Of a stretch of DNA of 37,604 bases, positions 9,157-36,926 are shown one piece after another (the stretch's first letter is position 1; every line of letters starts with the position of its first letter). The translations under genes and the position numbers were made by a program. The notes under the pieces are model-generated. The model had not been told where the DNA came from. It saw only the letters and a program-made list of their open reading frames with translations, and did no database searches. The stretch lies in assembly GCA_937936805.1 (NCBI GenBank), contig CALDDP010000223.1:1-37604 (forward strand), written 5' to 3'. The DNA comes from an uncultured Gammaproteobacteria bacterium (GTDB taxonomy: Bacteria > Pseudomonadota > Gammaproteobacteria > GCA-001735895).

Positions 9157-9188
9157 CGGGGCCGGCGATTCAGCTGGCCCCGGTTTTT
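9157..9188 (+). terminator. Intrinsic terminator/attenuator after the binding-protein gene
   Basis: A 10-bp stem (9157-9166 with 9173-9182, one G-U pair) closes a 6-base loop GATTCA and is followed by five T residues (9184-9188). It lies between the binding-protein gene and the ATPase gene of the same importer, so it is probably leaky and sets their ratio. Confidence 0.8.
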
Positions 9189-9236
9189 CATATTATCGAG
9201 GTGGTCTCGCCAAATCGGTTTTAACAGGAGCGAGCG

Positions 9237-12394: not shown

Positions 12395-12550
12395 AGAACT
12401 AACGCGGCGAAACCCGGCCGTGACGGAGCCGCTGTCGAAAGCAGTGTTCACTGTGCGGCGGCTGCGCATAATCGATCGACCACATCCCGCGTTCGAAGCC
12501 ATGCCGCAGGATAGTACCTGTGCCGAACTGGCAGGGCGCCGCCTTTCCCG

Positions 12551-14875: not shown

Positions 14876-14919
14876 GCAGCCGGAGGCCTGTTTCAACAAC
14901 ACCATAGAGACCAGATTGA

Positions 14920-16134: not shown

Positions 16135-16155
16135 GCAAAACACCATAGGACAATC

Positions 16156-17013
16156 ATGAGCGATTCGATCGTGCGGCCGCGCCGCAGTTTCATTTTCACG
16201 CCGGGATTGAAGCCCGAGATGTTTCCCAAGGCGCTGGCCTCGGGCACCGACATTGTCTGCGTCGAACTCGAAGACGGTATTGCGCCGAAAGACAAGACTG
16301 AGGCGCGCAAAAAAGCACTGGCTTTATTTGAAACCCCGCAGGCGGATGACGGAGTCGAACGAATTCTGCGCATCAACTGTATGCGCGAGCAATTCGGTGT
16401 TGAAGATGTGCAGGCAATCCTGGCTACCGAGACGCCGCCGCCGGCGCTGATGATGCCCAAGATCAGAACGCCCGACGAGGTCGTGATGCTCGATAATCTG
16501 CTCACCGAACGAGGACACGACACGCGGTTGCACATCATCATCGAAACCAACGCCGGTCTCGAAGCCTGCTACGAGATCGCGCATTGCAGTTCACGTATCG
16601 ATGCCCTTTTTTTCGGCGGCGTCGACATGGCCGCGGAGCTGCGCTGCGAAAATGCCTGGGAACCGTTGCTCTATGCGCGCTCACGCGTGGTGCATGCCGC
16701 CGCATCCGCCGGGCTCGATGTGATCGACGTGCCTTACCTCGACCTCGAAGACCATGAGGGGATGGTGGTGGCCGCAGGGCAGGCAAAAGCACTTGGTTTT
16801 TCCGGCAAGGGGGCGATCCACCCGAAACAGATCGCCGCGCTCAACGACGTGTTCACGCCGCGCGAAGACGAGATTGCCCGCGCTTGCCGCATTATCGAAA
16901 CATTTGAACAGGCCGATACCGGCCTCGTGGTGATCGACGGTAAGCTGATCGAAAAACCGGTCTTACGCGACATGTATCGCATTGTCGCCATTGCCGATCG
17001 AGTAAGCGAATAA
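16156..17013 (+). CDS. HpcH/HpaI-CitE family CoA-ester lyase (malyl-/citramalyl-CoA lyase-like)
   Basis: The 285-residue protein is of usual length for the CitE/malyl-CoA lyase family. It begins RRSFIFTPGLKPEMFPKAL, has the VELEDG loop (acidic Mg2+ ligands nearby), LRINCMREQFG with a substrate-binding Arg, IIIETNAGL, FFGGVDMAAEL and the family phrase KGAIHPKQIAALN. These enzymes cleave or condense beta-hydroxyacyl-CoA such as malyl-CoA, linking C2 and C1 metabolism (serine cycle) or citramalate and itaconate breakdown. It is the last gene of the importer/Mo enzyme/demethylase run. The physiological substrate is not determined; no other serine-cycle genes are in the window. A terminator hairpin follows. 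Confidence 0.87.
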   Translation: MSDSIVRPRRSFIFTPGLKPEMFPKALASGTDIVCVELEDGIAPKDKTEARKKALALFETPQADDGVERILRINCMREQFGVEDVQAILATETPPPALMMPKIRTPDEVVMLDNLLTERGHDTRLHIIIETNAGLEACYEIAHCSSRIDALFFGGVDMAAELRCENAWEPLLYARSRVVHAAASAGLDVIDVPYLDLEDHEGMVVAAGQAKALGFSGKGAIHPKQIAALNDVFTPREDEIARACRIIETFEQADTGLVVIDGKLIEKPVLRDMYRIVAIADRVSE

Positions 17014-17014
17014 C

Positions 17015-17067
17015 CCCGCAAAGCTGCTACTTCCGGCTAAGCGGCGACTCTTCTGCATTTTTGCGGG
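17015..17067. terminator. Inverted repeat between convergent genes
   Basis: CCCGCAAA (17015-17022) and TTTGCGGG (17060-17067) pair across a 37-base loop that has internal G/C-rich pairing potential. The element fills the short gap between the lyase gene (plus) and the first flavoprotein gene (minus), both of which end here. A bidirectional terminator is likely, although the loop is long. Confidence 0.45.
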
Positions 17068-17069
17068 TC

Positions 17070-19148: not shown

Positions 19149-19471
19149 TTCAGGTTTCCGTTTTTATTGTGGATATCAGGTTGGTATTTTGCTCTGTCCC
19201 ACTATGTTACAGGTTCGTGCTCGAGCACGGTTCGAACGAGTTGGCATGGTTTTATCGCTACGCAAGTATACACTTCGCCGAAACCTGCAGGTGGCCACCG
19301 GGAACAGATTTGCGCCGGTTCTCCCTTTTCGCTTCATTCTTTTGCTGCGCACGGAACAATAACATTTCTCGTTCGACGTCGCGGCTGCCAGGGTTCGTGA
19401 CGCCGGCGCGGGAGGGGCGGAACCGGCGCAGGCATACAGGGTGAAGAGTATGATCAAAATGGGTACCCGGG
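19149..19471. promoter_or_regulatory. Intergenic region before paralogue A with 14-bp perfect palindrome
   Basis: These 323 bp separate two minus-strand flavoprotein genes. I see no supported gene; short frames on both strands lack family features and ribosome-binding sites. A perfect palindrome CGTGCTCGAGCACG lies at 19216-19229, about 70 bp upstream of the paralogue A start, followed by TTCGAA. This could be an operator. It differs from the palindrome at 23790-23811, so a different regulator is expected. Confidence 0.35.
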
Positions 19472-21538
19472 CTACTCGTCGTCGAAGAAAACCCGATCGT
19501 ATTTCATGCGATTGTCCGGGTCTACTTCGCTGTCGAGTTCGCGTGCGTAACGGTGACCGGAGTAAACCGCGCCAGCGATGATCGACGGCGCTTCGCAGTC
19601 GCCGATGCGTGTAATCGACTCGGGCCGGTGCTCGGTGTCACCTTCCAGCATGCGTTCGACTTCGTGGAACAGCTCGCTGTTGGGTGCGCGCAGGGTCACC
19701 GTGACCACCGCCTCGGCGGTGACAGTTTTTTGTTCTCTGGTGTAAACGCATTCGAGTTGTGCCTCGCTGCCGTTGTAGGCGACGAGGCCGTGCGAAGTGA
19801 TGATTTCTATCCCGAGTTCCATCATGCGCCGCTGTACGCGCCCCTGTTCGCCGGTCTTGCCGCCCCAGGATGACAGCGTGGCGTCGGGCGTGACCAGCGT
19901 GACCGGGGCGCCCCTGGTGCGCAACAACTCGGCAATCACGTTAGCCATGTAGTAGTGATCGTCATCGTAGATCAGCGTCGGCCCCTCGGGCAGTCGCCCG
20001 GCCATGATGTCGTCCGGGGTGAAGATCTGCTGCGCCGGAGACAAGTTTTCCAGTGGCGTCATATTGTAAAGTCCGCGACCATCGGCCAGCCAGCGTGCGC
20101 CGGTGGCGAAAACGATATGCTGCGCCTCGATCGCAAGCACGTGCTCGGCGTCCATCTTGTTGTCGAAATAAACATCGACGTTATGCATGTGCTGTATCTG
20201 GTGCACGCGATAGTTGCGTACCCGCACCCATTCACCCAGGCCCGGTAATTCGGATTCGCGCGAAACACGCCCGCCCAGCGTATGCTCGGCCTCGGCCAGC
20301 AGTACATGATAGCCGCGCTGGCCGAGCGCGCGCGTGGCTTCGAGCCCTGCGGGTCCGCCGCCGATGACCAATACCGTCGAATCCGATCCCTTCGGCGCGA
20401 TCTTTTCCGGGTGCCAGCCGAGGCGCCATTCCTCGCTCATGGTCGGGTTCTGCGTACAGCGGATCGGCGTGCCGGTGCTGTCGCCGGTGTAACAGATATT
20501 GCAGCCGATGCATTCGCGGATTTCGTCGATGCGGCCTTCCTCGATTTTCTTCGGCAGGAAAGGGTCCGCGATCGACGGCCGCGCGGCGCCGATGAAATCG
20601 ACGATGCCGCGATTGACCTGTGACACCATCGTGTCCGGTGATGTAAATCGACCGACGGTCACCACCGGTTTTGTGGTAATCGATTTGACGTAGGACATGT
20701 AGGCTTCGAGCGAGCCCTCACGGACGAAACGCGATACGCCCATTTCACGCGAGTAATCCTTGATATTGATATCCCACAGGTCAGGTAGCTCGGCGAGCAT
20801 TTCGATCATCTCGCGATGCTCGCCAATGACCGGTTCGTCGTCGCTGCCTTCCTCGTCGGCGGAGAATCTGACCGCCACGGCACAGCGATCGCCGACCGCG
20901 TCTTTGGTTTCCTCGATCAGTTCGCGCACCAGGCGCACACGATTCTCCAGTGAGCCCCCATACTCATCGCTGCGGTTATTGGTTTTGGCATTGAGGAAGT
21001 GCGCCAGCATGTAGTGGTGTGTCGCATAGACATAGACGATGTCGAATCCCGCGTCGCGCGCGCGCAGCGCGGCGTTACGGTGCCAACGACGCACCTCGTG
21101 AATATCCGACTTGTCCATCCTGCGTGCCTGGAACGGGATTCCTATGGAATTGGGCATGTGGTTGACGTCCATCGCCACCTCGCGCGTGAACAGGTTGGTC
21201 GTGCGCGAGCCGCCGACCCAGAGCTCGGCGCCGGCAAGACCGCCATGTTCGTGCACCTTTTCGGTCATCAACGCGTGCGCCTTAATGTCACCCTGATCCC
21301 ACAGCGAGGCATAGGGGTGGGGCAGGTCGTCCGACTTCGGGTGAATCGAACAGTATTCGGTACAGACCACGCCCCAACCGCCCTCGGCCTTGGTGCCGCG
21401 CAGTTCCGCGACCATGCGTGGCCGCAGCCAGCCGAGGCCGGTGCAGTGCGGTACCTGGTAGAATCGATTCTTTGCCGTAACAGGGCCGATTTTTACCGGT
21501 TCGAAGAGTACGTCGTATCGAGGGTCGCGCTTGTGCAT
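19472..21538 (-). CDS. TMADH-family flavoprotein, paralogue B (Tyr60-type)
   Basis: The start MHKRDPRYDVLFEPV at 21538 aligns with its paralogues and gives 688 residues; the open frame extends to 21754 but the extra residues overlap the neighbouring gene. FMN-linking Cys32 is in FYQVPHCTG, the 4Fe-4S site is CIGCNIC...CTQN, and the dinucleotide site is VLVIGGGPAGLEA. Tyr62 in CTEYCSIHP matches Tyr60 of trimethylamine dehydrogenase, but the segment with Trp264 and Asp267 reads DYSREMG (Tyr, then Glu in place of Asp), and the Trp355 position is Gly. Tyr and His of the catalytic set (VYATH) remain. So it is a true family member with a changed bowl, and I do not assign the substrate. It lies 22 bp after paralogue C and is probably co-transcribed with it. 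Confidence 0.87.
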   Translation of the reverse strand: MHKRDPRYDVLFEPVKIGPVTAKNRFYQVPHCTGLGWLRPRMVAELRGTKAEGGWGVVCTEYCSIHPKSDDLPHPYASLWDQGDIKAHALMTEKVHEHGGLAGAELWVGGSRTTNLFTREVAMDVNHMPNSIGIPFQARRMDKSDIHEVRRWHRNAALRARDAGFDIVYVYATHHYMLAHFLNAKTNNRSDEYGGSLENRVRLVRELIEETKDAVGDRCAVAVRFSADEEGSDDEPVIGEHREMIEMLAELPDLWDINIKDYSREMGVSRFVREGSLEAYMSYVKSITTKPVVTVGRFTSPDTMVSQVNRGIVDFIGAARPSIADPFLPKKIEEGRIDEIRECIGCNICYTGDSTGTPIRCTQNPTMSEEWRLGWHPEKIAPKGSDSTVLVIGGGPAGLEATRALGQRGYHVLLAEAEHTLGGRVSRESELPGLGEWVRVRNYRVHQIQHMHNVDVYFDNKMDAEHVLAIEAQHIVFATGARWLADGRGLYNMTPLENLSPAQQIFTPDDIMAGRLPEGPTLIYDDDHYYMANVIAELLRTRGAPVTLVTPDATLSSWGGKTGEQGRVQRRMMELGIEIITSHGLVAYNGSEAQLECVYTREQKTVTAEAVVTVTLRAPNSELFHEVERMLEGDTEHRPESITRIGDCEAPSIIAGAVYSGHRYARELDSEVDPDNRMKYDRVFFDDE

Positions 21539-21560
21539 CCAGTGTTTCCTTCCGGTTTTG

Positions 21561-23636
21561 CTAGCTTTCAAAGTCTTCGAGTGAAATGATCTCGCGCCGG
21601 AACGGCATGTCGGGGTTTGCCGGTGGGGCGTCCATTTCACGCGCCACGCGGTGACCGTCGTGCACCGCGGCGGCGATGGTCGACGGGCACAGGCAGTCGC
21701 CGATGGCGTTGACCGACTTGATGCCTGCGTCGGCGAGGCGATCCGCATCGGCATTCAGCTCGAGCAGCAGTTCATCATTGGGCTGGCGCGACGTCACCAG
21801 CACTACAGTCGCGGCCGGCAGGGTACCCGCTTTGTCGGTGTAGACGCAGGCGGTCTCGACCGAGTCGCTGCCGATTCGGGTAATATTCTTCGAGGTTACG
21901 ACCTCGATACCGAGTTCGAGTACATGCGCCTGGATGCGGTGTTGCTCGAGCGTATGCTCGGTCCAGGACGAAACCTGTGTCGCCGGGGTCACCAGTGTTA
22001 CCTCGTGGCCGGCCAGTTTGAGCTGTTCGGCGAGCAATGCGCCCATGTAGTAATTGTCATCATCGAAAACAACCACGGGGCCGTTTATCTCGCTCCCGGC
22101 GAAAATGTCTTCCGCTGTTATCATGTGATCCTGGTCGGCACCGGGAATTGCCTGCCAGTTGGTTACGCCTACACCGCTGTCGCGCCAGCGTGCGCCGGTA
22201 GCGAGAATGACATGTCTGTAGTCCATCGCCAGGATATCCGCGGCGGTCAGACGGTTGTCGAGGTAGAACTCGACGTTCGCCATCGGCTGGATGCGTCCCA
22301 GGCGCCAGTCGCGCACGCGCGCCCAGGCGGCTAGCCCGGGAAGCTGGCTTTCACGCGTAACGCGCCCGCCGGCCTCGGTTTGTGCCTCCGCCAGCGTTAC
22401 CGGGTAACCGCGCTGTCCCAGTGCGCGTGCCGCCTCGAGCCCGGCCGGGCCGGCGCCGACGATGAGTATGCTGTCGTCCGATCCTTTAGCTGCAATTTTT
22501 TCGGGATGCCACTTGCGGCGCCATTCCTCGCCGATGGTCGGGTTTTGCGTGCAGCGCATCGGGGTGAAGGTCAGCTGTCCGGAGACACAGGTATTGCAAC
22601 CGATGCATTCGCGGATTTCATCTTCGCGGCCCTGCTCTATTTTCTGCGGCAGGAACGGATCGGCGATGGACGGCCTTGCCGCGCCGATCATGTCGAGCAC
22701 GCCGCGATTGATCTGGCTGACCATCGCGTCTGGCGAGGTGAAACGGCCGACACCGACCACTGGTTTTGTGGTCACGCTTTTGACGAAACCGACGTACTGC
22801 TCCTGGAAACCTTCATCGGAAAAACGCGAGGTCTGCGAGTCGTTTTCCCAACTGCTGACATTGACGTCCCACAGGTCGGGCATTTCGGCGAGCATCTCGA
22901 TGATCTCGCGGCCTTCGCCATCGCTGGTGATTCCGTCGGGGCCGAGTAATTCGTCGACCGCCATGCGGATCGCGATCGCGCAGCGGTCGCCAACGGCGTC
23001 TCGGGTTTCCTCGAGCACTTCACGGAACAGCCGTACCCGGTTTTCCAGGCTGCCGCCATACTCGTCGCTGCGCTGATTACGCCGCGCTGAGAGAAAGTGC
23101 ATCAGCAGCGTCGAATCGTGCCCGGCGTAGACATAAATGATATCGGCATCGGCCTTCTTTGCCCGTAATGCGGCATCGCGGTGCCAGCGGCGAAACTCGC
23201 GGATATCCGTTTTGCTCATACCTCGGGTATGTGTCGGCTGGTTTTCCACCGAGGCCTGGTGCGAGGGGCCAATCGGCGGCATGCGGGTATAGAGGTTCTG
23301 CGCGCCAACGCCATTGTGCGCCAGCTGCACCCCGGCGAGTGCGCCGTGACGGTGCACGCCTTCGACCATCAGTCCCAGGCACCTGATGTCGTAGTCGTCC
23401 CACAGGCGCGCCTGCGGTTCGGGTGTGTAGTCGGAAGTCGGGTGGATCATGCACTCTTCGGTGCAGATGACGGCCCAGCCGCCCTCGGCCTTGGTTTCGC
23501 GCATTTTGGCGTGGGTTTGCGGCCAGTTGAAGCCCATGCCGTTGCAGTGCGGCACCTGGTAAAAGCGATTTCTGGCGGTGACCGGACCGATCTTTACAGG
23601 TTCGAAGAGGACGTCATAAAGTGCGTCTCGGGTCAT
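21561..23636 (-). CDS. TMADH-family flavoprotein, paralogue C (Glu at the Tyr60 position)
   Basis: The 691-residue protein is the promoter-proximal flavoprotein of the minus-strand operon. FYQVPHCNG holds the FMN-linking Cys31; CIGCNTC and CTQN give the 4Fe-4S cluster; ILIVGAGPAGLEAA starts the dinucleotide domain. The catalytic Tyr/His (VYAGH) and Asp (SSWENDS) are present. The bowl positions are Glu61, Trp, and Gly. An acidic residue in place of the first aromatic suggests a substrate with a second charge, such as an amino acid betaine, N-methyl amino acid or dimethylglycine-like compound; DgcA and StcD demethylases belong to this broad family. Its start lies 154 bp from the TetR operator, pointing to substrate-induced control. 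Confidence 0.88.
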   Translation of the reverse strand: MTRDALYDVLFEPVKIGPVTARNRFYQVPHCNGMGFNWPQTHAKMRETKAEGGWAVICTEECMIHPTSDYTPEPQARLWDDYDIRCLGLMVEGVHRHGALAGVQLAHNGVGAQNLYTRMPPIGPSHQASVENQPTHTRGMSKTDIREFRRWHRDAALRAKKADADIIYVYAGHDSTLLMHFLSARRNQRSDEYGGSLENRVRLFREVLEETRDAVGDRCAIAIRMAVDELLGPDGITSDGEGREIIEMLAEMPDLWDVNVSSWENDSQTSRFSDEGFQEQYVGFVKSVTTKPVVGVGRFTSPDAMVSQINRGVLDMIGAARPSIADPFLPQKIEQGREDEIRECIGCNTCVSGQLTFTPMRCTQNPTIGEEWRRKWHPEKIAAKGSDDSILIVGAGPAGLEAARALGQRGYPVTLAEAQTEAGGRVTRESQLPGLAAWARVRDWRLGRIQPMANVEFYLDNRLTAADILAMDYRHVILATGARWRDSGVGVTNWQAIPGADQDHMITAEDIFAGSEINGPVVVFDDDNYYMGALLAEQLKLAGHEVTLVTPATQVSSWTEHTLEQHRIQAHVLELGIEVVTSKNITRIGSDSVETACVYTDKAGTLPAATVVLVTSRQPNDELLLELNADADRLADAGIKSVNAIGDCLCPSTIAAAVHDGHRVAREMDAPPANPDMPFRREIISLEDFES

Positions 23637-23763
23637 ATCAGATACTCTCGCTGGTTGAAACTTTTCAGGCTCCGAATAGCCGATAATCTACGATAATGAT
23701 TAAACAAGTTGCGACCGTCCCTGGTCGCCAAATTACCGAGGAGTGTCGGTTTTTTTCAACTCG

Positions 23764-23792
23764 TTGACAGGTTAGTAGACAGGAAAGATACT
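23764..23792 (+). promoter_or_regulatory. Promoter of the TetR-type regulator gene
   Basis: TTGACA at 23764-23769 is followed after 17 bases by GATACT at 23787-23792, a good sigma-70 arrangement. The -10 box overlaps the palindromic operator. On the opposite strand TTGTAA (23818-23813) and TAGTAT (17 bases on) could form the promoter of the flavoprotein operon. Confidence 0.6.
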
Positions 23793-23811
23793 ATCTGACC
23801 AGTCAGATAGT
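23790..23811. promoter_or_regulatory. Palindromic operator ACTATCTGAC-CA-GTCAGATAGT
   Basis: Two perfect 10-base half-sites are separated by two bases, located between the divergent flavoprotein operon and the TetR-family gene. The site overlaps the -10 region of the regulator promoter and lies in the spacer of a likely opposing promoter. Length and position are typical of TetR operators, so the adjacent BetI-like regulator is the best candidate ligand-responsive repressor of both directions. Confidence 0.75.
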
Positions 23812-23881
23812 TACAAGTGCGGAAAACCCGGTGCAAATGACATGATAGACTGCAATGCAATGCCATCCGCTGCAGGGAAAA

Positions 23882-24517
23882 ATGAAAGTAGCTGAAGTAA
23901 CCAAAGATAAACGTCGAATCCGGGGCGAGGAAAGCCGAAAACTGATCCTTAAGTCAGCGATAGACAATATCGCGAACAGGGGTCTCGGCAGTTTGACGCT
24001 CGATCGTGTGGCCGAGAAGCTCGGGGTTTCGCGCGGGCTCGTCGTTTTTCATTTCAAATCGAAGAACAATTTGATCATGGAGGTGCTGGAGTATCTCGGC
24101 AAGAAATATTCCGGCGGTTGGAATGCCATTATCAAGGAAGAGGGTGTTTCAGACATTGAAAAGCTTTTGCGTCTAATCGACTACGATATCCGTTTCGCCT
24201 GCGACAACCCGAAGTATGTCTCCGCCTGGCACGCTTTCTGGGGCGAATCCAGTGGCAAGGAAATGTTTCACGATCTGGTGTTGCCCAGAGACGAGGGTTA
24301 TGCCGCCGACATGAGGGGGCTAATTGAGAATGTCTGCGAGCAGGAAGGTTACAACGAGGTGGATGTTCCGACGGCAACCAGGGGGCTGGTTTCCATGATG
24401 TTTGGCACCTGGGTGTTGTTGCATTTGAGCCCCGGCTCACATGACTACGAGAAAAGCATGCAGGCTTTGCGCCTTTACCTGGGTGGAATTTTTCCCGATA
24501 CCGAGCTTCCGCAATAG
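23882..24517 (+). CDS. TetR-family regulator, BetI-like
   Basis: I place the start at the ATG at 23882 (211 residues), which follows GCAGGGAAA; an in-frame ATG at 23855 would add nine residues and has no ribosome-binding site. The N-terminal HTH covers about 37-60: LTLDRVAEKLGVSRGLVVFHFKSKNNLI. The C-terminal ligand domain has SAWHAFWGESSG, close to the AW-AFW phrase of BetI-type repressors that respond to choline or betaine compounds. It is divergent from the C-B flavoprotein genes with a 22-bp palindrome between them, and is followed 46 bp later by the amidinohydrolase gene. Likely autoregulated and released by a methylated amine or betaine. Confidence 0.85.
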   Translation: MKVAEVTKDKRRIRGEESRKLILKSAIDNIANRGLGSLTLDRVAEKLGVSRGLVVFHFKSKNNLIMEVLEYLGKKYSGGWNAIIKEEGVSDIEKLLRLIDYDIRFACDNPKYVSAWHAFWGESSGKEMFHDLVLPRDEGYAADMRGLIENVCEQEGYNEVDVPTATRGLVSMMFGTWVLLHLSPGSHDYEKSMQALRLYLGGIFPDTELPQ

Positions 24518-24563
24518 CGAACCGGCCAGCGAACCTGGTGAATGACGTTAGACTGGAAATCGC

Positions 24564-25472
24564 ATGGCCGCAATATCGATAAATGATGAATTTTCGCAGC
24601 TGCAGCGGGTCATTATCGGCCTCGGTGCGCCTTACCAGACCAACAAAAACCAGGTCGCCAGCGAAATGGCGGAATTCCCGTTCGTACCGAATACCGATCG
24701 AAAGCGGGAAGTTCTCGCGCTAACCTATCCGACCGAGGAAATCCTGTTGCGAGAGTATGCCGACTATGTCGGGATACTGGAAAAGTACGATATCGAAGTG
24801 TTGCGGGCAGACCCCGGCGTCGCATATTCCTTCGACTATACCTGTCCCCGCGATATCGGGTTTGTCATCGGCGATCGGTTCTTTGTCGCCAACATGGCCG
24901 TACCGAGTCGGGTGGACGAGATCGATACCGTTCGACACTTGATGGCGAATATTGACCCGGACCGAATCGTGCAACCACCGACAGGCGTCCTGCTGGAGGG
25001 CGGGGACGTGATACTGATCGACTACAGCACGATCCTGGTTGGAATCAATCAACGCTCGAATTTTCGAGGTTATGCATTTCTAAGGGATTATTTGAGTCCG
25101 CTCGGGTACCAGGTTTTGCCTCTCGAACACAACCAGCTGCATCTGGACTGCTGTCTTAATCCGCTGGGCGGAGGGCATCTGCTGATCCACCCTGATAGTC
25201 TGAAAGGAAACCATGCAGCAACCTGGCGCATACTGGAAGGGTTTCGCTGGGTCCATGTCGATGCTGTCGAACGAGAGCATCTTGCGACCAATGTGCTTTC
25301 TATTAATCCTGATACCGTCATCGCGCGCAGTCATGTTGCTTGCACGCGCGTAAATAATATTCTCAGGGACCTCGGTTACCGGGTTGAAGAAATCGATTTT
25401 GATGGCGTTCCGGCGACCGGCGGTTCCTTCCGCTGCGCGTCGCTGGTTCTCAGCAGAGCTGTTGAGAGCTAA
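24564..25472 (+). CDS. Pentein-fold amidinotransferase/dimethylargininase-like hydrolase
   Basis: The 302-residue protein belongs to the guanidino-modifying pentein superfamily (arginine deiminase, DDAH, glycine amidinotransferase). The sequence shows CPRD (94-97), LLEGGDV (Glu145, Asp148), LHLDCCLNPLGGGHLLI with catalytic His193, and GGSFRCASL with nucleophile Cys291. Such enzymes attack the guanidinium carbon and release ammonia, an alkylamine or transfer the amidino group. DDAH would give citrulline and dimethylamine, which would suit the dimethylamine dehydrogenase-like paralogue A nearby. The protein is longer than bacterial DDAH (about 255), so arginine deiminase-like or other guanidine substrates remain possible. 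It is probably co-transcribed with the regulator gene. Confidence 0.82.
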   Translation: MAAISINDEFSQLQRVIIGLGAPYQTNKNQVASEMAEFPFVPNTDRKREVLALTYPTEEILLREYADYVGILEKYDIEVLRADPGVAYSFDYTCPRDIGFVIGDRFFVANMAVPSRVDEIDTVRHLMANIDPDRIVQPPTGVLLEGGDVILIDYSTILVGINQRSNFRGYAFLRDYLSPLGYQVLPLEHNQLHLDCCLNPLGGGHLLIHPDSLKGNHAATWRILEGFRWVHVDAVEREHLATNVLSINPDTVIARSHVACTRVNNILRDLGYRVEEIDFDGVPATGGSFRCASLVLSRAVES

Positions 25473-27652: not shown

Positions 27653-28828
27653 TCACAGGTATTCGTAAGTCCGTTCCGGCGGAACCAGGGAGCCTGCGAT
27701 CATGCGTAAATTTTTGTCTTCTCCGAGATGCGCGGCATCCTGGAAATCAAGAATCATCTTGCCCGCGAGTGTCTGCTTCCAGAACCACTCGTTGAGCTGG
27801 AAAGACGATGGTCGACCACCGTTGGCCAACGCCGCCTCGAGGTAAAACACCTTGATATCATCGACGCTAAAACGTGCGCGCGATACCGGCGCCATGCCTT
27901 TCGGATTCGGCATCGGATCGGGCGAGAGATAACGCTGGATAAACTCGACCGCTGTCTCGGGTGAGAATCCACTGATACCAAAGGTAGTTCTGTTAGTGCG
28001 GGCTCGAGCCTTTTCCCAGACCGGTAGCACAGACAGCGCTTCCGCAAGAACCGAACCGGCATCGAGCCTACCCGGAAATTCCCAGCTCAAATCGCCCTGC
28101 AGATCGTTCGATTCTTCGGCAAAGTCCCGTAACAGGGGTTCAGAGGTGGGCTCATCGAGTAATGCCAGGGCTGCTTTCAGTACCCGCTGTTGCAGGGCGG
28201 CATCGTTGGGCGTGGCAAACGGGCGGCCCATTTCAAAAGGCACCCAGATCGCTCTGGGTGGTGACATTTTAGCCACATGTTCGCGCACGAGGGCTACGAC
28301 GGTGGTCGACAGACCTTCATCTTCGAGGTAATGGGCCAGCCCGCTCACGGCGCGCGTACAATTGGGTCACACCGGCGCCAGGACGACTGTATTCACTCCT
28401 AGCGCCAGCATCGATCTGCCGACTTCACGGGCCTTGTCCTCGAGCTCGTCAGGATGGGTGGCACCCATAAAGGCGTAGTGGGTATCGGCGGCCTTGCCGA
28501 TAACGCCTTCGGCTTCGAGTTCCTTCAGGCGATCACGCGGCAGCATGACGTTGAGATCCTGCTGGAAACCGCTGCGGTCAAAATTAACCGAAACATGGCT
28601 ACAGAGAATATCGCTATCCGTTACCTCCGTGGCGATTGAACGATAACCCGTATCGTTGCCGAGTGTCGGGCGCTGGCCGCGGACAATCAGCCCGGCAGAC
28701 GAAACAATCGCGACATGCCGCTCTTCGGGAGCCACTGCCGGGGTAAGGGGTTGGTGCGCATAGGGGACACATTCCAGTCCAGCCATGTAGCTGCGTTCGG
28801 GTTCGGGGATGTCGGCAAGTCGCACCAT
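27653..28828 (-). CDS. GrdB-family selenoprotein with in-frame TGA (Sec154)
   Basis: Two abutting open frames join through TGA at 28369-28367 into one 391-residue product. The N-terminal part (HVSVNFDRSGFQQDLNVMLPRDRLKEL, here in pieces HVSVNFDRSGFQQD and VMLPRDRLKEL, then GVIGKAADTHYAFMGA) matches the glycine/sarcosine/betaine/D-proline reductase selenoprotein B family. The stop codon sits exactly at the redox position: VVLAPV-U-PNCTRAV, a U-x-x-C motif like U-G-T-C-T-R in GrdB, and the family sequence continues after it (MSPPRAIWVPFEMGRPFATPN). selA, selB and tRNA-Sec genes lie directly upstream. No GrdA, GrdC/D or other reductase subunits are present, so it is probably a stand-alone thiol/selenol oxidoreductase of the proteobacterial branch, not glycine reductase. 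Its substrate is unknown. Confidence 0.92.
28367..28369 (-). other. Selenocysteine codon (TGA, recoded)
   Basis: The codon is in frame with both halves of the selenoprotein, and Cys follows three residues later (UPNC). The ~40 bases after it are GC-rich (GCGCGC...GCGGGC can pair over five of six positions) and could form a bacterial SECIS hairpin, but I could not identify a clear one by eye. Confidence 0.88.
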
Positions 28829-28959: not shown

Positions 28960-29055
28960 TGGCGGAAGAGCGTGGGAGTCGAACCCACCAGGGACGTGGT
29001 ACGCCCCTCACCGGATTTGAAGTCCGGGCGCCCCACCGGGGTGCGATCCTCTTCC
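28960..29055 (-). tRNA. selC: tRNA-Sec (UCA anticodon)
   Basis: The 96-base gene with encoded CCA follows the tRNA-Sec pattern. The acceptor GGAAGAG pairs with CTCTTCC, followed by G and CCA. The anticodon stem CCGGA/TCCGG closes the loop CTTCAAA containing TCA. A long variable arm (AGGGGCGT with ACGTCCCT) and a T-arm GTGGG-TTCGACT-CCCAC complete it. The eighth acceptor position appears to be G-G, a small departure from the usual 8-bp stem. It begins 3 bases after the selB stop codon, so it is likely processed from the selA-selB transcript. Confidence 0.96.
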
Positions 29056-29058
29056 TCA

Positions 29059-30993
29059 TCAAGCTTCATCATCGAGCGCGAAAACAGTCGCGGCGGGACG
29101 TCTAATTCGGCGACTGTTCCCTGAGCGTTGGGTAAAAGCCAGGCGATCGAAATACTCCAGCAATTCGATGGCGAAGTTTCTCCCCGTTCCGGTCTGCTGG
29201 CAAAACTCGGCTACGCTGAAGGAGCTGTCGGCCGACCTCTCCGCCAGGGCCTCGGCAGCGTAACCCAGTCGCGCCGTGTATGCCGTCGGTAAATAACGGT
29301 TCTTCGCTACCATCACCATTTCCCCGATCCTGACTGCATTCTTTAGAGACCTTTCGAGCATGGTTTTGTCAACTCCCAGCGCTTCCGCCGCCTGGTGCAG
29401 GCTTAGTGGGCTACCCGAATCCGGCGCCAACCTGGCGGCTGCCTGTTCCCAGAGCTGTCGGTCCTGCGCGGCGATCTGAATTTCGTGCGACGGCCAATGA
29501 AACCTTGTACGTCGTTGGCCGAGGCGCTTTTCCAGCACCAGGAAATCAGTGGCTTCCTCGAGTATGGGTGTCTCCACATGGGGTTTTAGCGCTAACTGGA
29601 TGTCCTTGAGACTGGCGCCGGGAAGCTCCGGCCTGGACTGGTGAAAGAGTCCGACCGCCTTTTCGATACGCCTGGTCAGGTCCTGCCATTGCGTTGCGCT
29701 GAAGACCCACTGCCGCGGGTGACGACCGATCCGTTGCAGCGAAAGTGATTCGACGATGGCGTCCGTTTGTTCTGACGGAAGATTATGCGAAACGGAGAAG
29801 GCGGCTAACGGCACTCCGACTTCACTGATCGCGGTCAGTGCAGTGAGCGCGTCGGCGGGGTCACGATGATTCATCGCCCGCAATGCGGCGATGCGGGTCG
29901 GTCGCGCACGCCCGCGCCTGGGCGACATCGGATCGATGACATGCCCGCCCGCAATGGTGCGCTGTGCGGACTGGTCACGTAGTACGAAGCGATCCCCGTG
30001 AACGACGAAAGCATCCTGATCCAGAACAAGCTGTGCCAAACCCCGCTCACCCGCGGCAATGGCGCCTCCGCAAAGAACCGCTACCCGCGCCGTCAGGCGA
30101 TCCGCGCCGATATGCAAATGCGTCGGGGTCCAGTGTTTCAACGATCCGGGCTCGGAGTCGAGCACGCGCAAATCGACGTCTATTCTTCTGCTCGGAGCGT
30201 ATAGATCGGCATGCATCAGCCAGTTACCGCGACGCACCGAGTCTTCGTTGACGCCACGCCCGACAATGTTTATCGCGCAGCGCTGTCCCGCCTGAGCGCT
30301 ATCGCTTACTTCGTTGTGCGCGCGGATTCCGCGTACCCGCACCGCTGATCCATCGGCAGACAGAACCAGGCTGTCATCGAGGCTGGCAATACCTGAAAAC
30401 ACCATACCCGTTACGACTAATCCAACCCCTTTAATGTTAAACACCCTGTCGATCGCCATGCGGAAATAGCCATCGACAGGACGCGGCTTTATGGCTTGCG
30501 CCCGTTTGCCAAGGTCATCCTTAAGCGCTGCCACGCCCTGGTTGTCGGGCGCGCAGACTGGATACATGGCACCGCCCTCGAGCCCGGCCTGGCCGAGTAA
30601 TGTCTCTACCTCCCCCTGGACTTCGAGAATCCGGTCGTCGTCGACCCGATCGATCCTGCTTATCGCCACGACACACTGGTCGATCCCGAGCAGGCCGAGA
30701 ATTGCGCAATGCTCGCGGGTCTGCGGCATCACGCCGTCGTCAGCCGCCACCACCAGCAAACCCAGATCGATACCGCCGACACCGGCCAGCATATTGCGGA
30801 TGAATTTTTCGTGCCCCGGCACATCGACAAACCCCAAAGACGACTTGTCAGGCAACGATTGATAGGCAAATCCCAGGTCGATCGACTGGCCGCGTGCCTT
30901 CTCCTCGGGCAGTCGGTCGGTATCCGTGCCGGTCAATGCCTTGATCAGCGCGGTCTTACCGTGATCGACGTGGCCTGCCGTCGCTATGATCAT
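29059..30993 (-). CDS. selB: Selenocysteine-specific elongation factor SelB
   Basis: The 644-residue GTPase brings Sec-tRNA to the ribosome at UGA codons marked by a SECIS hairpin. The G1 motif GHVDHGKT is at 7-14, switch II is DVPGHEKFI, and SRID stands where other factors have NKxD. EF-Tu-like beta-barrel domains follow, and the C-terminal third consists of winged-helix repeats (for example LSLHQAAEALGVDKTML) that bind the SECIS. It is slightly longer than the E. coli protein (614). The ATG overlaps the selA stop (ATGA), and tRNA-Sec begins just after its stop. Confidence 0.96.
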   Translation of the reverse strand: MIIATAGHVDHGKTALIKALTGTDTDRLPEEKARGQSIDLGFAYQSLPDKSSLGFVDVPGHEKFIRNMLAGVGGIDLGLLVVAADDGVMPQTREHCAILGLLGIDQCVVAISRIDRVDDDRILEVQGEVETLLGQAGLEGGAMYPVCAPDNQGVAALKDDLGKRAQAIKPRPVDGYFRMAIDRVFNIKGVGLVVTGMVFSGIASLDDSLVLSADGSAVRVRGIRAHNEVSDSAQAGQRCAINIVGRGVNEDSVRRGNWLMHADLYAPSRRIDVDLRVLDSEPGSLKHWTPTHLHIGADRLTARVAVLCGGAIAAGERGLAQLVLDQDAFVVHGDRFVLRDQSAQRTIAGGHVIDPMSPRRGRARPTRIAALRAMNHRDPADALTALTAISEVGVPLAAFSVSHNLPSEQTDAIVESLSLQRIGRHPRQWVFSATQWQDLTRRIEKAVGLFHQSRPELPGASLKDIQLALKPHVETPILEEATDFLVLEKRLGQRRTRFHWPSHEIQIAAQDRQLWEQAAARLAPDSGSPLSLHQAAEALGVDKTMLERSLKNAVRIGEMVMVAKNRYLPTAYTARLGYAAEALAERSADSSFSVAEFCQQTGTGRNFAIELLEYFDRLAFTQRSGNSRRIRRPAATVFALDDEA

Positions 30994-32384
30994 GGGATCA
31001 CCAGTCCTTGCAGGTTGTCGATAAACTCTGCCTCATCTTCGAGGCAGCGCAGGTCGAACCACAAGGCATCGTCGGCAATGCGCCCGATTACGGGTGTCGG
31101 CAGATCCCGAAACGCTCTCGCCAGCTGCTCCAGTGCCTTGCCCGGGCGGCGCAGCTTGGGTTGGGTAAGCCTGATGGCAAAGCTCCCCAGTTGGTCGACG
31201 GGCAATGCGCCACTGCCCACCTGGCTGTGGGTGGGCGCGACCGTAACCCGGAAACCTTCACAACAGCGCTCAACAACCGGGGCGAGGCGAGTCGCCAGCT
31301 GTTCGATTTCGGTTTCCTCGCGGGTCAACCAGTGCAGGGTAGGCAGTTGTTCGGCAAGGCGGGCTGGATTGGTGTACAGGCGCAGCACGGCGTGCAGTGC
31401 CGCCAGCGTAATCTTGTCGGGGCGCATGGCGCGGGTCATCGGATTGCGCTTGATTTTCTCGACCAGGTCATGGCGGCCGGCGATGATACCGGCCTGCGGT
31501 CCGCCAAGAAGCTTGTCGCCGCTAAATGTTACCAGGTCCGCGCCTGCGGTTAAGGCCTCGCTGACGGTGGTTTCGTGAGGCAGGCCATAATCTTCTAGAT
31601 CGATCAGGGTGCCGCTGCCGAGGTCGGTTACCAGCGGCAGGTTATGCGCGTGCGCTATGCTGGCGAGTTCTGCTTCAGTAACGCCGCTGGTAAATCCCTG
31701 GATCTCGTAGTTGCTGGTATGGACCTTCATCAGTAGTGCGGTCCTGGGACCCACCGACGCTTCGAAATCGGCGGCATGCGTCCGATTGGTCGTGCCGACT
31801 TCTACCAGCTTGCAACCCGCCCGCGCCATGATGTCGGGCATGCGGAAAGCCCCCCCGATCTCGATCAACTCGCCCCTCGAAACCGGCACTTCCTTGCGCA
31901 ATGCGAGGCTGTTGAGGGTCAGCATGACGGCTGCGGCATTGTTGTTGACCACCAGTGCCCGCTCCGCCCCTGTCAACTGGCATAACAGGGCCTCAGGATG
32001 TTGGTGACGATCGCCGCGCTTACCCGCAACCACATCGAACTCGAGACTACTGGCGCCACGGGCGACTTCGATCATGGCGTCAATTGCGCAAGCGGGTAAC
32101 ACGGCACGACCGAGATTGGTGTGCAACACCGTTCCGGTCAGGTTGATGACCCGCCGCAACGACGGACGAACCGCCCTGGCGACCTCCTCACCAAGATTGT
32201 CGACGAGATCGTTCGACTCGAATGACTGACCGGCCAGTACCAGACCACGTGCCGACTCGAGGACGTTACGTGCGCAGCCGGTGACGAGGGTAGCGCCATA
32301 ATCGCGCACCATCGCTGCTACAGCCGCGTCGTTCAACAGACGATCGACCGACGGCAGCTGTTTGGGGGTATCGATAATAGACAT
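30990..32384 (-). CDS. selA: L-seryl-tRNA(Sec) selenium transferase SelA
   Basis: The 464-residue PLP enzyme converts Ser-tRNA(Sec) to Sec-tRNA(Sec) using selenophosphate. The N-terminal tRNA-binding helices begin QLPSVDRLLND. The core contains RRVINLTGTVLHTNLGRA, VVNNNAAAVML and VTFSGDKLLGGPQAG, with PLP-binding Lys291. The length is almost identical to E. coli SelA (463). It is the first gene of the compact selA-selB-selC-selenoprotein unit; selD, needed for selenophosphate, is not in the window. Confidence 0.97.
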   Translation of the reverse strand: MSIIDTPKQLPSVDRLLNDAAVAAMVRDYGATLVTGCARNVLESARGLVLAGQSFESNDLVDNLGEEVARAVRPSLRRVINLTGTVLHTNLGRAVLPACAIDAMIEVARGASSLEFDVVAGKRGDRHQHPEALLCQLTGAERALVVNNNAAAVMLTLNSLALRKEVPVSRGELIEIGGAFRMPDIMARAGCKLVEVGTTNRTHAADFEASVGPRTALLMKVHTSNYEIQGFTSGVTEAELASIAHAHNLPLVTDLGSGTLIDLEDYGLPHETTVSEALTAGADLVTFSGDKLLGGPQAGIIAGRHDLVEKIKRNPMTRAMRPDKITLAALHAVLRLYTNPARLAEQLPTLHWLTREETEIEQLATRLAPVVERCCEGFRVTVAPTHSQVGSGALPVDQLGSFAIRLTQPKLRRPGKALEQLARAFRDLPTPVIGRIADDALWFDLRCLEDEAEFIDNLQGLVIP

Positions 32385-33011
32385 GTCGAATCACACGGAC
32401 CGAATAGAGACGACAGTATCGGCTTGCCGCCCGTTTGACAAGATGTAATACCACCGCGCGGTCTATCGGTCGGGGAAATTTCCCGCGTCAGCCCACCTGT
32501 TTCCTGATTACTGGCCGGCGACCGCGGGTCTCCTGCCCTCCACGCCATTTAAGGGCGGGCGAATCTCTACTGTGCGGATTGAACGCCCCGGCAATTACGA
32601 TTCAACTTGTCTGCAACCTTACCGAAGCGGACGCTCGAAAAACTATGCCGGGCGGCAAAAACCGCCCCTCAACAGTCACTCAAAATGAATAGTAAAGATT
32701 GGTTTCAGAATTTGTCATCCCGCGGCTTGAACGCGGGATCCAGAGATATTGAACTGGATTCCGGCTTTCGCCGGAATGACAAGAACTGGCCGGAGATTGC
32801 CTTCTGCCAGGATCTTGTAGGAGTCTGCTATTGCGAAAACAGGCGCTCATACCGGATGAATCAGCAGCAATATGTGACCCATCTCGCTCTCCTGGTCTCG
32901 CACCGACATTATTTTTGCCGGATGTGGATATGCCACTCGGAGCATTGATTTTGATGCTTATACTCTTTTCAGGATCATTACTTTTTTAAGTAACGATTCA
33001 CGACCAGGTTT
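32385..33011. other. Intergenic region upstream of selA with one palindromic repeat
   Basis: These 627 bp lie between selA and the two-domain hydrolase gene, both on the minus strand. I see no supported gene; short plus-strand frames (for example at 32435-32692 and 32607-32948) run through the repeat and lack family features. The selA promoter should lie near its start, and a TTGTCA about 60 bp upstream is a weak -35 candidate. An AT-rich inverted repeat at 32978-32993 sits just after the hydrolase stop and may help termination. Confidence 0.5.
32712..32782. repeat. REP/MITE-like 71-bp palindromic element with two hairpins
   Basis: The element is bounded by TTGTCAT and ATGACAA. Inside are two 8-bp hairpins: ATCCCGCG/CGCGGGAT (32717-32724 and 32732-32739) and ATTCCGGC/GCCGGAAT (32758-32765 and 32770-32777). 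GGATCCAG and CTGGATTCC also pair across the middle. Elements with this GTCAT...ATGAC form are common as dispersed intergenic repeats in proteobacteria. Only one copy is present in the window. Confidence 0.8.
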
Positions 33012-34811
33012 TTAAAAGTCGAACTCCATGCTCTGGAACACCTGGCCGGCATTGCGTTTGGCCAGGAACTCGGCGGTTGGCAGATGCATGTAGGGAGACT
33101 GGTCAATCTGGTATGCCTCGTCCAACGTGCCCCCGTTTTCGATCAATTCACCGACTTTTTCCCGCAGGTACACGAGGTAATCGCGGGTATATTTTCTTAC
33201 CGTTGCCATGTCGGTCGGTTCACCGTGACCCGGTATCACGACCTCGGCACCCAGAGCCTCAAACTTGTCCCAGGTTTCGATCCAGGCTGCCGAATCGGTA
33301 TGTTCGAACAGGGGTAACATGCGTTGGTGAAAAGCCATGTCGCCCGAAATCACGAGACGTTCTTCTGGCAGCCATACGATAATATCGCCTGGGCTGTGCG
33401 CCGGGCCCAGGTTAAGCAATTCGATTCGTTGATCACCCAGCTGGATAATCTTTTTATCCTCGAAAGTCTCGTCCGGCATTGCCACCTTCGTTCCTTCCGC
33501 CTTTTCCCTGGCGCGCGACTGCATCGTTTCCAGCAGCGAAAACGATTGCTCCTCGATCTCGTGCAGCGCGTCGATATGCGCGATCACGGGGACACCTTGC
33601 TCCTGCCAGTAGCTAGAGCCAAGCATCGCATGTCCCTGGCCATTCTCCAGCACCACGTAGCGCACCGGCTGGTGGGTAATTTTTTTAATTTCCTCGTGCA
33701 GGGCTTTTGCCAGCAGGTAATTATCGCCGGCATTCACCACCAGCACCCCCTCGTCTGTAACGACGAACGACAGGTTATTATTGTGCCCGGAATTCGAATA
33801 AGTTCTGGGTGCGGTCGCGCCGATCGCCGACCATACTCCGGGTACTACTGCCCTGGGCAGCTCGAATAACACCGATTGCGGCGCGTTATCGTTGTTATAG
33901 CGTGCCTCACCGGTGAACGCCTCGCCGGAAGTCACTTCGGTGGCGGGAACTGTCAATTGTTCGCGCATAAATTTTGCCGCGCGTTGAATCGAATCTTTCG
34001 CTGCCAGATCGTCGGCAAAAGTCCGCACGCTTTCGGTACGAAAATCGAAGCCGCGACCAACACCGGGATAGGTTATCAGCCGTGCATCCCTGCCTTTGTC
34101 CTGCATTACCTTGATGCTGGTCTCGATCACGCGACGACGCTGATACTGTTCTTCGTCACCGATAAAAACCAGCGTTGGCAGGGTCAATTGCTCGATTTCT
34201 GGCGCATAGCCGTAGACCTGCAGCGGCTCGGGCGCGTTCGGATCCTGCAAGTGGGGGTAATAAGATACGTAGCAGGCGATGTGTTTATCCTGACGTTTGA
34301 ACGTGGTTGCTACTTTAAGGGTGTAGTATCCCCCGCGGGTGTGGGAATAAAGACAGGTCTTGTCCGTGCTGATGTCACCGCGATCGAGGAGCACGTCAAC
34401 CGCTGCGTCGATGTCCTTTTCCAGGGCATAGTCGTGCTCTATCGGGTGAGTACCGATAAAATGCGCCCCGTAGATATCCGGCGCCAGCACCACGAATCCA
34501 CGCGCCGCCAGGCGTCGAGCATGACGTTGAATCAGATCACCCAGCCCACGTCTTCCATGAACAAACAAAACGGCTGGATATTTCTCCTTGTTTGCTGGCC
34601 GTACTACAAGGGTTGGGACCTCTACGTCACCGCTCGTGTAACTGTCCCATGTTGATTCGATGGCATGATTTTCGGGTGCCTCGATCAAGCCGTCATTCCA
34701 CCAACCATCATCCCACCACCAGGAATTATCCTCATCAGTCGATTGGGCAGCTACCGGGTTAACCGCGATAGAGATCGCGATGAAAACGATTGTTCGAAGT
34801 CTGGAAAACAT
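33012..34811 (-). CDS. Periplasmic fusion of dienelactone hydrolase-like and metallo-beta-lactamase-like domains
   Basis: The ATG at 34811 opens a signal peptide (MFSRLRTIVFIAISIAVNPVAA) and has GGGGA upstream, so I prefer it to the start at 34835; the product has 599 residues. Residues 60-285 form an alpha/beta hydrolase like dienelactone hydrolase (VLFVHGRRGLGD, LAPDIYG). The nucleophile elbow reads SHTRGG, with Thr158 where Cys or Ser is expected; Asp219 is kept, but the His position looks like Arg253 (GVGRGFDF). Residues 310-599 are a metallo-beta-lactamase fold related to SoxH/quinoprotein-associated hydrolases. His472 (PAHSPGD), Asp491 (SGD) and His529 (PGHGEP) are kept, but the first HxHxDH motif is replaced by ENGQGHAM. 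Its activity is doubtful; a binding or altered hydrolase role is possible. It lies beside cytochrome c genes. Confidence 0.82.
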   Translation of the reverse strand: MFSRLRTIVFIAISIAVNPVAAQSTDEDNSWWWDDGWWNDGLIEAPENHAIESTWDSYTSGDVEVPTLVVRPANKEKYPAVLFVHGRRGLGDLIQRHARRLAARGFVVLAPDIYGAHFIGTHPIEHDYALEKDIDAAVDVLLDRGDISTDKTCLYSHTRGGYYTLKVATTFKRQDKHIACYVSYYPHLQDPNAPEPLQVYGYAPEIEQLTLPTLVFIGDEEQYQRRRVIETSIKVMQDKGRDARLITYPGVGRGFDFRTESVRTFADDLAAKDSIQRAAKFMREQLTVPATEVTSGEAFTGEARYNNDNAPQSVLFELPRAVVPGVWSAIGATAPRTYSNSGHNNNLSFVVTDEGVLVVNAGDNYLLAKALHEEIKKITHQPVRYVVLENGQGHAMLGSSYWQEQGVPVIAHIDALHEIEEQSFSLLETMQSRAREKAEGTKVAMPDETFEDKKIIQLGDQRIELLNLGPAHSPGDIIVWLPEERLVISGDMAFHQRMLPLFEHTDSAAWIETWDKFEALGAEVVIPGHGEPTDMATVRKYTRDYLVYLREKVGELIENGGTLDEAYQIDQSPYMHLPTAEFLAKRNAGQVFQSMEFDF

Positions 34812-35029
34812 AATATAAAATCCCCGATATCTCATTCATGCTGATTTTTAGTGACTTCAGCCATATACCAGCTCAAGGGTATTTCGAATAACAACAAATA
34901 AAAATACCGCGAATGGGATGTATTTGTTTTTGCGGATACTGAAGCTTACCTGCTGATTTCGAATCCGGCAATTTGATATTGACCACCTTACTGAGCAGTA
35001 TTTTCGTGCATGACGAGTAGCCGCAGGAT

Positions 35030-35816: not shown

Positions 35817-36926
35817 TTATGGTTGTTGGATTAGCAGCGGAATCAATTCCTGGTATGGCCGGTAGCCCTCGATTTTTTCACCGTTGCTTTTGATTAATGC
35901 CGGGGTACCGCTGATGCCCATCTTGTTACCCGCGAGATAACCACGATCAACCATCGACGCGGCCTCGCAATCACCTGGAGGCAGATCATCGAAACGTTGG
36001 TTCTTGGCGTCGGTCATGGCCTGGTTTCGATTTTCCGCACACCAGATCGACCTGAGGTGTTGATAACCGGGACCCCGGCTACCACCGCGGGCATAGGGGA
36101 AATAGCGGACGGTGATACCGGCCTCCTGCAGTTTGTCGATTTCACCGTGCAGTTTCTGGCAATAGGGACAGGAGGTATCGGTAAAAACATTCAGCATCGC
36201 TCTGGATTGACCCCGGGCGGGGAATATAACCAGATCGGTATCGTCGAACTCGGACAGGGTTTCAATCGCCGTTAAACGGCGAGCCTGCTCGGTTAAGTTG
36301 CGACCGTCTTCGAGATTAACCAGATCGCCCATTAACGCGTACCTGCCGCCGTCCAGCAGGTAAACGTAACGATTGCCGATCTGTACCTGCCAGACACCCT
36401 CGACGGAGGTTTTTGAGACGTCGTCGATCTTTGCATTACCGATTCGTTGCCGCAGCAGTCTGGTAATAGCTTTATTCGTCGCGACGACGATATCGTTCAG
36501 CGAAGGCAAGTCTGAAGATTCGAAACGTCCGGCCCAGCGCTGATAGATTTCGTCAGGCCACTTCGACTGGAAAAAGGCGATGATGCTGTCGATTTCCGTT
36601 GCGCTCAAACTCCCCTCGAAACCAGGCATCTGTCCGCCGAATTTGGCGCCACCTTCACGAATCGTGCGCCGCAGGAGTTCCAGGTCATGATGCCAGGTAT
36701 GTGCTGTGCCATTCAATGGCGGCGGCGGATAATTGCCGTTGGCGTCGGTTTGTTTCCAGTTGGGTGTTGCCTCGGCATTCTGACCGTGACATGCAGCGCA
36801 ATTCTGTTGGAACAGCGGCTCACCCCGGGTAACCTGCTCGTCGCTGTACCAGCGTTCCTTTGCCGAAGCAGGTACCTGACTGGTGGTCAGGACCAATGCC
36901 ACAATGAAAAGTTTTAGTATTTTCAT
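35817..36926 (-). CDS. Cytochrome c - DsbC disulfide isomerase fusion protein
   Basis: The 369-residue exported protein (signal MKILKLFIVALVLTTSQVPASA) joins two periplasmic redox modules. Residues 25-130 are a class I cytochrome c with CAACH (Cys43, Cys46, His47) and distal Met100 in GQMPGFEG. Residues 145-220 resemble the DsbC dimerisation domain (GVWQVQIGNRYVYLLDGGRYALMGDLVNLEDG, here seen as GVWQVQIG and YALMGDLVNLEDG). Residues 240-369 are a thioredoxin fold with CPYC (253-256) and cis-Pro in GISGTPALI. Normally DsbC is a separate protein reduced by DsbD. The fusion suggests direct electron exchange between heme and thiols or linkage to cytochrome maturation. It begins 2 bp after the small cytochrome gene. 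Confidence 0.92.
   Translation of the reverse strand: MKILKLFIVALVLTTSQVPASAKERWYSDEQVTRGEPLFQQNCAACHGQNAEATPNWKQTDANGNYPPPPLNGTAHTWHHDLELLRRTIREGGAKFGGQMPGFEGSLSATEIDSIIAFFQSKWPDEIYQRWAGRFESSDLPSLNDIVVATNKAITRLLRQRIGNAKIDDVSKTSVEGVWQVQIGNRYVYLLDGGRYALMGDLVNLEDGRNLTEQARRLTAIETLSEFDDTDLVIFPARGQSRAMLNVFTDTSCPYCQKLHGEIDKLQEAGITVRYFPYARGGSRGPGYQHLRSIWCAENRNQAMTDAKNQRFDDLPPGDCEAASMVDRGYLAGNKMGISGTPALIKSNGEKIEGYRPYQELIPLLIQQP

Follow-up and report, generated by a model that had tools for sequence, protein, structure and literature searches.

In Paracoccus, the sox cluster is named soxRSVWXYZABCDEFGH, and soxH is its last gene. Paracoccus SoxH is a lone protein of 312 residues. The role of SoxH stands unexplained in print (PMC11237559), and another paper (PMC11034169) gives the name soxH to the gene of Sulfitobacter mediterraneus DSM 12244 found at one of the loci compared below (L083). 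Here we describe a SoxH homologue encoded in a window of 37,604 nucleotides, a contig of an uncultured gammaproteobacterium. Its metallo-beta-lactamase (MBL) half is 57.5% identical to Paracoccus SoxH over 292 of 312 residues and shares with it the motif ENGQGHAMLG and the later His/Asp ligands. In contrast to Paracoccus SoxH, the window copy is fused to a dienelactone hydrolase (DLH)-like half and lies outside a sox cluster. The open-licence literature searched held no description of a triad-less DLH family or of a DLH-SoxH fusion; a DLH of unspecified kind is listed in an Allochromatium proteome table. What is new here is a DLH-SoxH architecture of the known, unexplained SoxH, together with a new Sox-linked partner family.

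Architecture of the fusion protein and its altered active sites

The fusion gene occupies positions 33012..34835 on the minus strand, where all protein features given below also lie. It forms an uninterrupted open reading frame for 607 amino acids, with coordinates checked by translation. The internal Met9 falls at position 34811, the end of the reading frame in a preceding sequence-only reading of this DNA. It is likely the better start codon, since most relatives align from residues 8-10 and a signal-peptide-like stretch comes after it. This stretch (residues 9-31, MFSRLRTIVFIAISIAVNPVAAQ, 34743..34811) was judged by eye, and the protein is probably exported to the periplasm. A Trp-rich motif, WWWDDGWW, occupies residues 39-46 (34698..34721), and its W40, W41, W45 and W46 are invariant among 51 sequences. 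Pfam places a DLH domain (PF01738, E 1.6e-15) at residues 74-292 and a Lactamase_B domain (PF00753, E 5.4e-11) at residues 413-537. The DLH half contains the only two cysteines of the whole protein, C161 and C188. Structure models were built separately for each half rather than at full length, because the halves came out misaligned when fused, DLH-only and MBL-only rows were aligned together.

The DLH-like half, modelled as residues 28-300 (33936..34754), adopts an alpha/beta-hydrolase fold of the PF01738 type with a mean pLDDT of 91.7. Its model matches 4zv9 with a VIA Z of 25.2 (rmsd 2.6 over 219 residues) and the DLH 3f67 with a Z of 24.1, and the dienelactone hydrolases compared (3f67, 4zv9 and 1din) span Z values of 22-25. 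While the fold is alike, the window family differs from these enzymes in its Thr at the nucleophile position, its Arg in place of the catalytic His and an invariant Arg/Glu/Cys set of its own. The DLH alignment comprises the window protein and 50 of the 53 rows available; the other three, which were partial, were omitted. The nucleophile elbow, Ser164-His165-Thr166-Arg167 (34335..34346), reads S-H-T166-R-G-G, with T166 and R167 conserved in 51/51 rows and H165 in 48/51. In profile alignments, T166 falls on the Ser of chlorophyllase 8fjd, and R261 (motif YPGVGRG, 34053..34055; 51/51) falls on the His of 3f67. The triad acid position lies in Asp227-Glu-Glu-Gln230 (34146..34157), where E229 and Q230 are invariant (51/51) and residue 227 is Asp in 42 rows, Glu in eight and Ala in one. 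Arg95-Arg96 of the HGRRGL motif (34548..34553), Cys161 (34353..34355), Cys188 (34272..34274) and H195 are likewise found in all 51 rows. The two arginines may sit near the oxyanion-hole position, and a disulfide between Cys161 and Cys188 is possible. Measured against esterases, the DLH half has the fold, and lacks both the Cys/Ser nucleophile (Thr166) and the catalytic His (Arg261) in every one of the 51 rows.

The SoxH half, modelled as residues 303-607 (33015..33929) with a mean pLDDT of 93.9, has an MBL fold. The closest solved fold is 8d2z from Burkholderia cenocepacia (VIA Z 32.9, rmsd 2.3 over 273 residues), whose own motif, SHYHAVR, is altered in another way; chlorothalonil dehalogenase and CphA match with Z values of 31.7 and 29.0. 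The window protein reads ENGQGHA in place of HxHxDH, with N398-G-Q400-G-H402-A403 at 33627..33644. The MBL alignment contains the window protein and 64 of 68 rows; it leaves out four rows (two canonical, one more of canonical type, one partial) and retains one canonical outgroup row (L036). Q400 and H402 are present in 64/65 rows, the sole exception being this outgroup. N398 and A403 are each present in 49/65, and the rows that do not match are L036 and 15 cousins with GGQDHR, GxQDHHW or similar. The later ligands His480 (MBL His196 position, 33396..33398), Asp499 (Asp/Cys221 position, 33339..33341) and His537 (His263 position, 33225..33227) are invariant (65/65), as are R505 and W518. In addition, His351 of the SGHNNN loop (33783..33785) is kept in the SoxH clade (49/65, the others being the cousins and one outgroup). 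His503 of GDMAFH (33327..33329) occurs in 50/65 rows and is replaced by Ser in L198, a sox-cluster SoxH of Paracoccus that reads ENGQGHSMLG. Among the marks of a canonical metallohydrolase, the MBL fold and the later ligands are present and HxHxDH is absent.

The best NCBIfam matches across the whole MBL half are two families of SoxH-related quinoprotein relay metallohydrolases, TIGR04558 (132 bits, cut-off 300) and TIGR04559 (139.3 bits, cut-off 280), both below the curated threshold. A sister MBL-fold family (L021-L029, L097-L099, L030-L033) carries GGQDHRWLG or GxQDHHWLG for HxHxDH, also conserved, and 15 of its members were placed in the MBL tree.

The sequence-only reading had described a DLH half with Thr and Arg at two triad positions and an MBL half that lost HxHxDH while keeping later ligands, both within one exported protein. 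The alignments agree on both halves, and from its N-terminus, signal-peptide-like as judged by eye, the protein is probably exported. Catalytic residues kept elsewhere in the protein, which that reading named as a way to overturn it, were looked for, and the alignments contain no intact triad or HxHxDH. The structure prediction and homologue alignment it proposed gave two high-confidence folds matching DLH and MBL structures, and altered residues conserved over 51 DLH rows and 65 MBL rows. The SoxH identity of the MBL half and the tracking of soxB by both halves had been overlooked.

Relatives of the two halves and their association with sox genes

A tblastn search with the MBL half matched 13 plasmid records, seven of them from Paracoccus. 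The match in P. ferrooxidans directly follows soxXYZABC, two c-type cytochromes, a flavoprotein and another MBL gene; we take the positions after soxC to be soxD-soxH, with the match in the position of soxH. The same gene set and order are found by tblastn in P. pantotrophus DSM 11072 and P. denitrificans. In Ruegeria and another Paracoccus, the SoxH relative stands beside a soxG homologue and a YeeE/YedE gene with other sox genes near, and YeeE/YedE-type transporter genes occur near several SoxH loci. The S. mediterraneus relative adjoins soxE, soxF and soxG; other loci have soxC and soxD nearby (L080), soxYABCD-type genes (L188) or soxS to soxG (L189). Altogether, nine relative loci are located in sox clusters (L080, L083, L188, L189, L195-L198 and L200). 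SoxG, encoded by the MBL gene adjoining soxH, was located at L083:3964-4929, L189:12525-13352 and L195:11030-11941. Paracoccus SoxG keeps HGHPDH, and the L083 SoxG leans towards AidB-type lactonases with a score under the cut-off.

The window contains no sox gene except the soxH match itself, and no fused copy was seen within a sox cluster, the nearest case being a genome (G018) with soxB about 17 kb away. Since the window gene lies outside a sox cluster, the name SoxH homologue refers to its sequence; the gene is fused and displaced. The fused, rhodanese-bearing and sox-cluster MBL forms, Paracoccus SoxH included, make up one clade (SH-aLRT 99). The MBL half is almost certainly a SoxH homologue and the protein linked to Sox.

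A scan of genome contigs yielded 57 loci of relatives. Fused copies occur in gammaproteobacterial metagenome-assembled genomes and in one labelled Halobacteria, probably an effect of labelling or binning. DLH-only genes are found, for example, in Thioalkalivibrio and Chromatiales, and MBL-only genes in Thiobacillus, Thiohalocapsa and Sulfitobacter. Many gammaproteobacterial relatives have a rhodanese domain with the MBL domain in place of the DLH domain (seven of ten relatives tested), and the rhodanese active-site Cys is kept in 19 of the 20 loops found. The trees are quick searches, in which some MBL rows were called rhodanese-bearing from upstream ORF length alone. The fused rows form a single clade (98) in the MBL trees, so that one fusion event is the simple reading; in the DLH tree they are not resolved as one clade and four DLH-only rows fall among them. 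Two genomes of the same genus (G004 and G030; L094, L095) carry a rhodanese-SoxH gene directly upstream of a separate DLH gene. Their DLH groups with the fused DLHs and the adjoining MBL comes from another branch, so the SoxH partner has apparently been swapped.

The association with soxB was examined in a class survey of 370 genomes, where a relative of either half was called at E <= 1e-60, giving 47 positives; misses are possible, as at most three candidates were scored per genome. soxB is present in 46/47 positive genomes versus 115/323 negatives (p 1e-17). The sole exception is the window's own genome, which is incomplete and contains a soxB fragment cut by a contig end. Counted by family, the figures are 30/30 versus 47/135 (p 2.8e-12), a test that assumes 165 families from the highest label seen and removes shared ancestry only partly. 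A second draw from the phylum, with positives mostly from other classes, gave soxB in 7/7 positives versus 9/73 (p 3.6e-6); here soxB was tested in 80 of 299 genomes, namely all seven positives other than G000 and 73 genomes chosen by even handle number. Moreover, soxB occurs in all 30 DLH-only and all 21 MBL-only genomes. The fusion also points to a second protein, a triad-less DLH whose presence predicts soxB in 30/30 genomes. Relatives of both halves are found together in only 8/30 (DLH) and 8/21 (MBL) genomes. The DLH-only and MBL-only genomes being mostly different, neither half strictly needs the other.

As a control, the related MBL family TIGR04558 has a much weaker link to soxB than the relatives of the window protein (11/16, p 0.034). 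dsrA was considered as the driver of the co-occurrence and rejected: it adds nothing within soxB-positive genomes (p 0.20), and none of the ten dsrA-positive, soxB-negative genomes carries a relative. Almost every genome of the window's own family has soxB (36/41), and a within-family test therefore gives no information. A search for the SoxA family gave no match in the window's own genome, nor in control genomes, and is therefore uninformative. The co-occurrence with soxB is strong but confounded by shared ancestry and lifestyle.

Gene neighbourhoods outside the sox clusters are diverse. The genes around the loci were picked with a home-made score instead of a gene caller; 20 neighbouring proteins were annotated and the remainder compared by clustering alone. 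The sequence-only reading had suggested a partnership with the adjacent cytochromes. The cytochrome c, cytochrome c-DsbC and DUF2231 genes that flank the window copy did not recur next to the other relatives, fused or split, in the annotated neighbour sets. As cytochrome genes were seen next to the window copy only, we rejected the partnership as a general rule. The nearest relative with flanks (L037) is preceded by an RND-pump-type gene, which clustered with L043:1568-4729, annotated as AcrB. Neighbours at other loci include DUF2130, a metallophosphoesterase, a radical-SAM/response regulator/DAHP synthase set and a TonB receptor. For the DLH half, clustering of the loci revealed no conserved neighbour or operon partner. 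One cluster that recurs there (c1) appears at loci whose DLH gene had escaped the gene picking; it resembles an antisense ORF lying over that gene. Two genes upstream of the fusion gene, the window encodes a cytochrome c fused to a DsbC-like isomerase (35817-36926, minus strand; PF13442, PF10411 and PF13098). A DsbG-like gene directly adjoins the SoxH gene in the sox cluster of another genome (G547).

Possible roles of the fusion protein

We put the probability at about 60% that the fusion is a Sox accessory protein of the periplasm whose MBL half has a rebuilt metal site and whose DLH half is non-hydrolytic and binds anions. Any single mechanism is more tentative. The fusion would act as an accessory factor of thiosulfate oxidation on periplasmic sulfur species, most likely SoxYZ-bound or free sulfane sulfur, and would receive or clear those borne by the Sox carrier. 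The rhodanese domain on many SoxH-type relatives suggests sulfane-sulfur work; the window protein has the DLH half instead. In the SoxH half, a rebuilt site would bind a single metal in place of the canonical dinuclear zinc site, with H402, H480, D499 and H537 as candidate ligands and H351 and H503 near. The DLH half would not hydrolyse esters; its R95, R96, H165, R167, E229 and R261, which are invariant or nearly invariant, may instead serve to bind a sulfur-containing anion or a partner protein. Cys161 and Cys188 could serve as a disulfide or redox pair.

The first motif has a bearing on SoxH in general. HxHxDH would ordinarily underlie a proposal of hydrolysis by SoxH, and it is absent from the lineage that contains Paracoccus SoxH, an absence conserved over the different proteobacterial classes sampled here. 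One may tentatively suppose that SoxH is not a zinc hydrolase, that its lineage rebuilt HxHxDH into NxQxHA as a carrier- or sulfane-sulfur site, and that the triad-less DLH is a further, previously unrecognised periplasmic Sox component, brought to light by its fusion to SoxH and by its restriction to soxB genomes among the 370 surveyed.

Both halves might instead be non-catalytic, together forming a structural or chaperone-like pseudoenzyme scaffold for Sox proteins or for their redox or cofactor maturation. The invariant loss of both the triad and HxHxDH would fit such a scaffold, as would the DsbG-like gene beside the G547 SoxH gene and the cytochrome c-DsbC fusion two genes from the window gene. 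We find it doubtful, since H402, H480, D499, R505 and H537 persist in 64-65 of 65 rows, which a pure scaffold would not require. The proposal of a non-catalytic or new role in the sequence-only reading divides along the same line: the conserved changes fit a non-classical role, whereas a non-catalytic one is less clear, as the metal-ligand-type residues H402, H480, D499 and H537 remain and could form a rebuilt metal site.

Somewhat less likely is an active metallo-hydrolase, in which the SoxH half would free sulfate from the S-sulfonate of a SoxY cysteine as a stand-in for SoxB, with the DLH half docking. Such hydrolysis of SoxY-bound sulfonate has been proposed for Campylobacterota proteins that go by the name SoxH (PMC10045233, PMC11237559). 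H480, D499 and H537 are invariant here, H402 can replace Asp120, and the nearest folds include class B2 enzymes such as CphA (Z 28.7-29.0). Class B2 enzymes work with Asn116 and one zinc. However, the first motif retains none of its four canonical ligands unchanged, and where the relatives occur soxB is already present, so that a substitute for it is not needed.

Chemistry like that of persulfide dioxygenases, with a mononuclear iron in the MBL half oxidising a persulfide delivered by rhodanese in the split forms or by the DLH half in the fused form, is improbable. The rhodanese-MBL architecture of the relatives recalls the persulfide dioxygenase-rhodanese fusions mentioned in PMC6060420, and two of the three iron-ligand positions (H480 and D499) are kept. 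In that source, the first iron ligand of AcPDO is H57, the His of HxHxDH; this position is Asn398 in the window protein, so that the 2-His-1-Asp site lacks its first His, which makes this chemistry less likely. The window protein differs from those fusions also in lacking the rhodanese domain.

The accessory reading takes the altered sites as functional, and the pattern of substitution agrees. Against four fused relatives, dN/dS is 0.07-0.09 for the whole gene; against two of them, each half gives 0.06-0.09. The altered positions stay constant across sequences down to about 52% identity, far beyond chance, and with the low dN/dS this argues for sites under selection, not eroding. Judged from these comparisons, the fusion gene is a working gene and not a decayed one. 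The scattered decay that the sequence-only reading had named as a possible refutation was not seen, although two relatives lost most of the MBL half. Ordinary decay, as a pseudogene or relaxed duplicate, could point to the eroded MBL half of those two relatives (L057, L088/L096) and is scarcely conceivable against the dN/dS of the whole gene and of each half and the invariance of the altered residues, so we dropped it. The deletions themselves are large, and in these fused copies (L057:5001-6116 and L088:2-622 / L096) the DLH half stays intact or nearly so, which suggests that this half can be kept alone.

Other genes in the window

The window also carries a gene of the GRDB family (PF07355) at 27653-28828 on the minus strand, with an in-frame TGA at codon 154 (VUPNC) and a frame of 391 codons when TGA is read as U. 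This is likely a gammaproteobacterial selenoprotein of the glycine/betaine/D-proline reductase B kind. Beside it, a tRNA-Sec, a SelB-like gene (recognised by eye) and selA stand in a row (28960-32384, minus strand). A methylated-amine/betaine module extends over 8128-25472 and includes a choline/betaine ABC transporter, a molybdopterin S/N-oxide reductase, a GCV_T-type protein, three OYE/TMADH-type flavoproteins, a BetI-like regulator and an ADI/DDAH-like gene. Between selA and the fusion gene, at about 32700-32790, lies a palindrome-rich stretch noted by eye (GTCATTCCGGCGAAAGCCGGAATCCAG...GGATCCCGCGTTCAAGCCGCGGGATGAC), which looks like a dispersed repeat.
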